In this document: positions 48,792 through 49,910 of the stretch, piece after piece
Layout of the letters: every line of letters begins with the position of its first letter
Position numbering within the stretch: position 1 is the stretch's first letter
Source: Actinomycetes bacterium
Lineage (GTDB): Bacteria; Actinomycetota; Actinomycetes; S36-B12
Assembly: GCA_024641635.1 (NCBI GenBank)
Contig: JAHECS010000006.1
Span: forward strand, 31,062 to 87,867
Direction of reading: 5' to 3'
DNA length: 56,806 nucleotides
Made by a program: the position numbers and the translations under genes
The notes under the pieces: model-generated
Database searches by the model: none
The model's input: only the letters and a program-made list of their open reading frames with translations
Told to the model about the DNA's origin: nothing

Positions 48792-49466
48792 TCAGGCCGG
48801 ACCTGGCCCCAGCCAGCGCAGGTACTCGCGGTCGCCCAGCAGGTCGAGTCTGGCCCAGAGCGCGCTGCCGGGAACGGCTTGGCTGGGGTGGCATTCGACG
48901 GCTCGCCGCTGCCCCGACCTGTCCACCTCGACGACGAGGTCGATCTCCTCGGGCTCATGCCCGCGGAAGGGCACACCGAGGTCGGTACGCAGCCGGGCAG
49001 CGACGGACTCGGGGATGGTCCAGCCGAGCACGGAGACGCCACGCTCCTCGGCCACGCGCATCGCCACCGCCGTCGCTGCCGTGTGGTCGGGGTGCCCGGT
49101 CACGCCACTGGGGTCGAACGCAACGAACCCGTCGGCGGCCACGTCATCGGCCATCACCCTCACGGCTGCGGCCAGGCCATCGGCATCGACACCGGCCAGC
49201 CCGCCGTCGGGGTAGGACAGCAGCCGGACGTCGGACAGGCCCAGCTCCCCAGCCGCGCCCGTCAGCTCCCCCGCACGGATGCCGGCGAGAGGTCCCTCGA
49301 CCCCATGCACCGTCGATGCCTCGCCGTGGGTGAAGCACAGCACGGACACCCGCGCCCCGGAGCTGACGAAGGTGCTGAGCACGGCTCCCAGCCCGAAGGA
49401 CTCATCGTCGGGGTGAGCCACGACTGCGAGGACCGAGCCCCACGTCGGCAGTCGGCCTGACGCCAT
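48792..49466 (-). CDS. PIG-L/LmbE-family deacetylase
   Basis: A 224-aa zinc deacetylase with AHPDDE near residue 17-22 and the second metal/His motif GHPDHTAA. It belongs to the superfamily of MshB, Mca and BshB (de-N-acetylation of GlcNAc-type substrates, including thiol-cofactor precursors), but is shorter than MshB/Mca (about 290-300 aa). GGGAGG precedes ATG 49466. Its -10 (TATCGT, complement of 49498-49503) overlaps a CsoR/CstR-type operator shared with the divergent cysteine-rich gene, which hints at a thiol- or metal-related role. Confidence 0.87.
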   Translation of the reverse strand: MASGRLPTWGSVLAVVAHPDDESFGLGAVLSTFVSSGARVSVLCFTHGEASTVHGVEGPLAGIRAGELTGAAGELGLSDVRLLSYPDGGLAGVDADGLAAAVRVMADDVAADGFVAFDPSGVTGHPDHTAATAVAMRVAEERGVSVLGWTIPESVAARLRTDLGVPFRGHEPEEIDLVVEVDRSGQRRAVECHPSQAVPGSALWARLDLLGDREYLRWLGPGPA

Positions 49467-49497: not shown

Positions 49498-49519
49498 ACG
49501 ATACCCCCTGGGGTATCAT
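49498..49519. promoter_or_regulatory. CsoR/RcnR/CstR-type operator overlapping two divergent -10 boxes
   Basis: GATACCCC-CT-GGGGTATC (49500-49517) is a perfect 8-bp-arm palindrome of the ATACCCC/GGGGTAT type recognised by DUF156 regulators (copper CsoR, persulfide CstR). Leftward -10 TATCGT (complement of 49498-49503) serves the PIG-L gene; rightward -10 TATCAT (49514-49519) serves the cysteine-rich gene. Both overlap the palindrome ends. No regulator gene of this family is in the window. Confidence 0.75.
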
Positions 49520-49563
49520 CCACACTCGACGCACCCGGCGTCCCGCGACCCGAACGGATCACC

Positions 49564-49731
49564 ATGTGCCGACAGACCACCTGCCGTGCCTGCAAGAAGG
49601 CCACCTGGGCCGGCTGCGGCCAGCACAAGAACGAGGTGCTGCGCGGCATCCCCAAGCCGCAGCGCTGCTCGTGCACCGCCGCAGAGAAGGCCGCGGCCAG
49701 GGGCTTCTTCGCCCGACTCCTCGGCGCCTAG
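49564..49731 (+). CDS. 55-aa six-cysteine mini-protein
   Basis: Encodes MCRQTTCRACKKATWAGCGQ... with Cys at 2, 7, 10, 18, 35 and 37 plus His21; the CxxC (7-10), CG and CxC (35-37) spacing looks like a metal or persulfide ligand set. A basic C-terminal helix (EKAAARGFFARLLGA) follows. I recall similar uncharacterised proteins in actinobacteria and fungi. ATG 49564 preceded by ACGGATC; the leader from the CsoR-type promoter is about 40 nt. A metal chaperone/buffer or sulfane-sulfur carrier fits; untested. Confidence 0.75.
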   Translation: MCRQTTCRACKKATWAGCGQHKNEVLRGIPKPQRCSCTAAEKAAARGFFARLLGA

Positions 49732-49760: not shown

Positions 49761-49910
49761 ATGGAGGACCAGCACGATGAGGGCCGCGGCGTCCACGAGC
49801 ACCGGGTTCGCCACGACCGCCGCTACATGATGTTCGCGATCGGCCTCGCACTGGTCGTCCTGGCGTTCGCTGCGATCTCGATCACCGTGGTCGTGTCGAC
49901 GACTCCCTGA
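49761..49910 (+). CDS. 49-aa single-pass membrane protein
   Basis: A His/Arg/Asp-rich N-terminal half (MEDQHDEGRGVHEHRVRHDRR) followed by one transmembrane helix (FAIGLALVVLAFAAISITVVV) and a short tail. CGGAGGGG lies just before ATG 49761, 29 bp after the cysteine-rich gene, so it may share the CsoR-type promoter. Four His in the first 20 residues could bind metal. Function unknown. Confidence 0.6.
   Translation: MEDQHDEGRGVHEHRVRHDRRYMMFAIGLALVVLAFAAISITVVVSTTP

Follow-up and report, generated by a model that had tools for sequence, protein, structure and literature searches.

What regulates the two divergent genes on either side of a short palindrome in this actinomycete genome, and what does the small cysteine-rich product of one of them do? 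The locus lies in a 56,806-nt stretch of a single contig (the window), taken from a genome of 3.06 Mb in 82 contigs that is 96.9% complete. The original prediction described a perfect palindrome bound by DUF156 regulators that sense Cu(I) or persulfide, with a 55-aa six-cysteine protein (the mini-protein) and a PIG-L deacetylase as joint targets. The palindrome is present at 49500-49517 with 0 mismatches, separates the PIG-L gene (minus strand) from the mini-protein gene (plus strand), and has no second match in the window when up to three mismatches are allowed; 3e-6 perfect forms are expected in the window under a Markov model. A persulfide (sulfur-stress) repressor very probably binds there. 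Features are listed in Table 1.

Table 1. Features of the locus and operator sites found across the genome
Feature	Position	Strand	Remarks
Operator palindrome GATACCCC-CT-GGGGTATC	49500..49517	.	Core TAC-X8-GTA at 49502-49515, CstR-type spacing
Likely -10 of mini-protein gene, TATCAT	49514..49519	+	Overlaps right operator half; from sequence and orthologous operators
Candidate -10 of PIG-L gene, TATCGT	49498..49503	-	Overlaps left operator half; from sequence only
Mini-protein gene, 55 aa, MCRQTTCRACKKATWAGCGQHKNEVLRGIPKPQRCSCTAAEKAAARGFFARLLGA	49564..49731	+	Subfamily A; probable metal-binding micro-protein
PIG-L superfamily deacetylase, 224 aa	48792..49466	-	Pfam PIG-L E=3.4e-25; divergent partner, same operator
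49-aa ORF	49761..49910	+	Several His, one hydrophobic segment; left out of the module
Site 1			Sole DUF156 regulator, then copZ, copA; CMD/AhpD-like gene divergent
Site 2			55-aa mini-protein and PIG-L
Site 3			Second mini-protein, 38 aa; small GlsB-like membrane protein divergent
Site 4			Rhodanese
Site 5			Rhodanese, then metallo-beta-lactamase/rhodanese protein of persulfide-dioxygenase type
Site 6			SLAC1-family exporter and membrane protein with CPVCNK motif
Site 7			Thioredoxin
Site 8			Rhodanese lipoprotein

Genome-wide sites were listed by pattern searches. TACCCC-NN-GGGGTA occurs at 6 sites against 0.02 expected, and the reversed control pattern at 0. TACCC-N4-GGGTA occurs at 8 sites against ~0.2 (0.23) expected, with 0 for the control. 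All eight lie at promoters whose genes serve sulfur, thiol or copper functions or transport, and sulfurtransferase and persulfide-dioxygenase-type genes (rhodaneses, a rhodanese with an MBL-rhodanese protein, and thioredoxin) share the operator. Within the genus (14 genomes), the site lies 45-70 bp before the start codon in 25/25 mini-protein genes. In wider Actinomycetota, it is found within 100 bp upstream of 50/94 mini-protein genes, counting copies from named genomes. Farther out, 752 kb of flank contains 44 operator sites and no match to either of two control palindromes. The predicted palindrome is therefore found again upstream of orthologues, although about half of the more distant mini-protein genes are without an operator within 100 bp, which counts against the preferred reading. 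A chance palindrome with no regulatory role is extremely improbable, given the conservation at a near-fixed distance throughout the genus, the genome-wide enrichment, and control patterns near zero.

The operator was also predicted to overlap the -10 boxes of both genes. When promoters were aligned on the operator, a TATNNT hexamer was present at the mini-protein-gene edge in 75 of 97 distinct orthologous operators, mostly as TATAGT or TATACT, with TTG enriched 17-18 bp upstream. These hexamers make the overlap well supported for the mini-protein gene; on the PIG-L side it is plausible, judging from the local sequence. With the operator over the -10 box in the aligned promoters, binding of a repressor would be in competition with that of RNA polymerase.

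The genome encodes one DUF156 regulator (G000:C11:30291-30551; 76.9 bits against a cut-off of 22.8), and an X8 site lies directly upstream of its gene, which agrees with a DUF156-type operator. In this regulator, Cys-Gly-Cys stands in place of the Cys-His-Cys of CsoR, with Gly at the position of the Cu-ligand His. Regulators of the genus carry C-G-C in 11/12 cases and C-H-C in 0/12; the twelfth reads C-G-F where the sequence diverges. DUF156 regulators beside mini-protein genes are without this His in 37/37 scorable cases in named loci and in 4/4 on plasmids, and it is present in the best-scoring DUF156 genes of the order (30/30) and of the phylum (30/30). The best PDB match of the regulator is 7mq1/7mq2, and 7MQ2 is named as CstR (PMC9774590).

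Operator spacing was compared between regulator types. CHC CsoR loci of the order have X9 in 29/30 and X8 in 0/30, and CsoR loci in a phylum sample have TAC-X9-GTA in 21/30 and never X8. His-less loci of the genus and family have TAC-X8-GTA in 29/30. Spacing is associated with regulator type at p=4e-15, with relatedness ignored. The copper CsoR of Streptomyces lividans has a TAC-X9-GTA operator (PMC3902906), and the sulfane-sulfur-sensing ScCsoR of Streptomyces coelicolor binds ATACC-N6-GGTAT, which is X8 (PMC7533328). The X9-type pattern ATACCC-N5-GGGTAT was absent from the genome in the pattern search, and no true CsoR was detected in it, the single DUF156 match being His-less. The His-less Cys-Gly-Cys, CstR as the closest match, and X8 spacing narrow the predicted "Cu(I) or persulfide" toward persulfide. 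The evidence, drawn from sequence comparison, places the regulator and its spacing as CstR-type (persulfide), not CsoR-type (copper). The operator is likely under the control of this CstR-type His-less DUF156 repressor, whose gene is at another place in the genome. The one-base difference between X9 and X8 splits His-containing from His-less DUF156 operators almost perfectly in the order. This suggests a one-base rule that would tell copper from persulfide DUF156 sites in Actinomycetota by DNA alone.

The mini-protein follows the same division. Among 99 genomes of the order, it co-occurs with His-less regulators (OR 13.9, p=4e-6) but not with CsoR (OR 1.3, p=0.8), with relatedness ignored in both tests. 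Of the regulator genes in the order, 23/75 His-less ones but 0/37 CsoR ones have a mini-protein gene no more than 3 kb away; regulator types were assigned by bit score and about half were checked by sequence. In other Actinomycetota, neighbors of mini-protein genes include the His-less regulator (35 loci), CoA-disulfide reductase-type enzymes (22), persulfide dioxygenase (19), and TauE/SafE exporters (15), as well as rhodaneses and thioredoxin. On plasmids of Curtobacterium, Rhodococcus, Arthrobacter, and Clavibacter (n=4), the gene lies inside or beside sulfur-detoxification clusters; the PLSDB tables, which are incomplete, list no feature under it on these four plasmids.

A copper reading of the operator is disfavored by the ligand residues, the spacing, and the co-occurrence. 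As a full alternative, it would have the regulator sense Cu(I) and the mini-protein act as a copper metallothionein, like RicR-MymT of Mycobacterium tuberculosis, in which a DUF156 repressor controls MymT, a metallothionein that binds Cu(I) through Cys (PMC10470581). The regulator does head copZ-copA in this genus, copA needs another controller where true CsoR and X9 sites are absent from the genome, and some g239 mini-protein genes have CsoR-type X9 sites. This alternative is nevertheless quite improbable. The His ligand is missing and the spacing is X8, the mini-protein neither neighbors nor co-occurs with CHC CsoR genes in the order, its neighbors elsewhere are sulfur genes, and its near-invariant K12, T14, W15, G17, and G19 exceed the needs of a passive metal buffer. 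The persulfide half of the predicted sensing thus holds up better than the copper half, yet the regulator heads a copper operon.

That operon follows the His-less regulator directly in 12/12 genus genomes with a regulator match; in the window's genome the regulator-copZ-copA locus is at G000:C11:30260-33090, with an AhpD-like CMD gene divergent. Its position in all twelve makes a copper input conceivable. Sister genera have the His-less regulator and the CMD gene in divergent orientation with no copZ-copA attached, and their copZ-copA is headed by a His-containing CsoR with an X9 site. In the draft genomes of the window's genus, and apparently of g240, CsoR is missing and copZ-copA lies behind the His-less regulator. 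Conversely, no His-less regulator was detected in three g239 draft genomes (G432, G491, and G493), where several mini-protein and CoA-disulfide-reductase/rhodanese genes have X9 sites and two mini-protein genes keep X8. One of these drafts, G432, has no DUF156 match at all despite its X9 and X8 sites. Being drafts, these genomes may encode a regulator that escaped detection. X9 at sulfur genes in g239 indicates that X8 tracks regulator type, not sulfur genes as such, and operator spacing seems to follow whichever regulator is left. Persulfide and copper control appear merged in the window's genus, the absence of CsoR and X9 sites suggesting that copper efflux was taken over by the persulfide regulator. 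These seem to be natural cases in which copper and sulfur regulons have been exchanged.

An extension of the persulfide reading, overlapping with it, is that the CstR-type regulator of the genus responds to copper as well as persulfide, or to the chemistry of the two together, and that the mini-protein handles the resulting soft species. Two observations are consistent with such a sensor: in the window's genus, and apparently in g240, CsoR is absent and copZ-copA adjoins the CstR-type regulator, and in g239, conversely, sulfur genes have X9 sites. It is unlikely, since the regulator is without the His ligand and copA expression might simply track sulfide stress. A broader proposal with two parts may be put forward tentatively: that the mini-protein is a new class of persulfide-inducible metal- or sulfur-handling micro-protein core to reactive-sulfur defense in Actinomycetota, and that CsoR and CstR swap targets through a one-base change in spacing, fusing copper and persulfide control. 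The target swap is based on X8 beside copZ-copA in the window's genus and X9 at sulfur genes in g239.

Under the persulfide reading, the apo-repressor would sit on TAC-X8-GTA over the -10 boxes and keep RNA polymerase from the two divergent promoters. Once its two Cys had been modified by persulfide or polysulfide, the repressor would leave the DNA and the regulon would turn on. Genes switched on would be those for rhodaneses, a persulfide-dioxygenase-type protein, thioredoxin, an AhpD-like protein, and a SLAC1-family exporter, together with copZ-copA, two mini-protein paralogs, and PIG-L. Persulfide as inducer and the mode of repression are proposed by homology with the characterized CstR and ScCsoR.

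The mini-protein was predicted to be a 55-aa six-Cys protein with CxxC and CxC motifs. ORF 49564-49731 encodes exactly this, with C7xxC10 and C35xC37 among its 6 Cys. All 130 distinct mini-protein sequences (130/130) keep C2, C7, C10, G17-C18-G19, H21, and C35. At position 37/38 the residues are exclusive, with C37 in 68 and G37-H38 in 62 of the 130. A switch between Cys-x-Cys and Cys-x-x-His within an otherwise invariant set of positions is a usual sign of metal ligands, not of redox-only Cys. This ligand swap points to a putative thiolate metal site, around which the mini-protein most likely folds. Subfamily A has a C-terminal GFFxRLFGR-like tail, and subfamily B ends after the last Cys. An AlphaFold model (pLDDT 84) has strands at 3-6 and 13-16 that bracket C7xxC10. 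Foldseek and VIA-align gave no significant fold match to the model (best E above 5), so no fold is claimed.

In the working model, a zinc-ribbon-like scaffold would use C7xxC10 with C35xC37 or C35xxH38 as the metal site, and a second invariant triad (C2, C18, and H21) would handle sulfane sulfur or a soft metal. This two-site division and the sulfur-handling role are speculative and held with less than even confidence. Small zinc ribbons often serve as adaptors. Instead of carrying sulfur or metal, the mini-protein could be such a structural adaptor built around zinc, serving for instance a rhodanese or a persulfide dioxygenase. A specific partner is suggested by the invariant non-ligand residues and by the conserved tail of subfamily A. 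The adaptor role is nonetheless somewhat unlikely, with the tail wholly absent from subfamily B, no partner identified, and paralogs in separate operons.

Searches of Pfam-A and NCBIfam found no family for the window mini-protein and no model matching more than 2/91 relatives. A PDB sequence search returned nothing below E=0.2, and a literature search with the peptide motif WAGCGQH and variants returned no relevant paper. The family has at least 588 confirmed loci and is present in 80/99 sampled genomes of the order. It has the look of a standard component of the response of bacteria to reactive sulfur that has so far been overlooked, and a known stress regulon would gain a widespread protein family that is without a curated model. 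Four contigs of the IMG/VR viral collection encode relatives of the mini-protein.

The PIG-L ORF (48792-49466) lies outside the interval 49498-49731 to which the original prediction was assigned, and its pairing with the mini-protein gene holds up elsewhere. Seven genomes, from four genera and two families, have PIG-L divergent from a mini-protein gene across an operator: the window's genome, G006, and G003 in the genus, G422 and G432 in the family, and G461 and G444 in another family of the order. The linkage is real, and PIG-L is a recurrent partner. Feeding of mycothiol synthesis by the deacetylase is not supported. PIG-L was rejected as MshB (48.9-52.7 bits against the NCBIfam equivalog cut-off of 224.35) and as Mca (40.4 bits against 277.15). 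It shares the PIG-L superfamily match with MshB, Mca, BshB1, and BshB2 but falls far below the cut-off of all four NCBIfam models. The genome encodes an MshB (366 bits) and an MshC (636 bits) apart from this gene, both above cut-off, so the organism can make mycothiol with other genes. PIG-L may act on an adduct of mycothiol or on a persulfide. The His-rich 49-aa membrane protein of the original prediction exists as an ORF; its membership of the module was rejected for want of conservation, with no homolog in any other locus examined. ORF 49761-49910 may not be a gene.

The regulon was compared with known systems. The ScCsoR circuit of S. coelicolor comprises SCO0620 with persulfide dioxygenase, rhodanese, and TauE (PMC7533328). 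It shares with the window regulon a two-Cys DUF156 regulator, which in ScCsoR senses sulfane sulfur, an X8 operator, and persulfide dioxygenase, rhodanese, and sulfite exporter targets. It differs in that no mini-protein or PIG-L is among its reported targets (PMC7533328), and in being one gene cluster, whereas the window's genome has eight scattered promoters and a regulator that also heads copZ-copA. CstR (Staphylococcus aureus, Streptococcus pneumoniae; PDB 7MQ1/7MQ2) is the closest solved structure to the window regulator. It likewise has a Cys pair without the Cu-ligand His and sulfurtransferase and persulfide-oxidation targets, but no mini-protein or PIG-L targets in the literature compared, and a different gene arrangement. 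S. lividans CsoR shares a type-2 G-tract palindrome with TAC/GTA ends and a copZ-copA target; its operator is one base longer (X9) and it is a Cu(I) sensor (PMC3902906). RicR-MymT also places a small Cys-rich protein under a DUF156 repressor (PMC10470581); its input is copper, whereas the window family occurs with sulfur genes and His-less regulators. The original prediction is right in kind, in that this is a DUF156-controlled module. The sequence evidence points to the persulfide branch, that of CstR, to which a copper operon has been joined, with the mini-protein as a probable conserved, unnamed member.

An X8 site at G000:C79:48673-48686 lies between the SLAC1/TehA-family exporter gene and that of the uncharacterized membrane protein with the CPVCNK motif. 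Relatives of this membrane protein are also encoded near mini-protein genes in other Actinomycetota.
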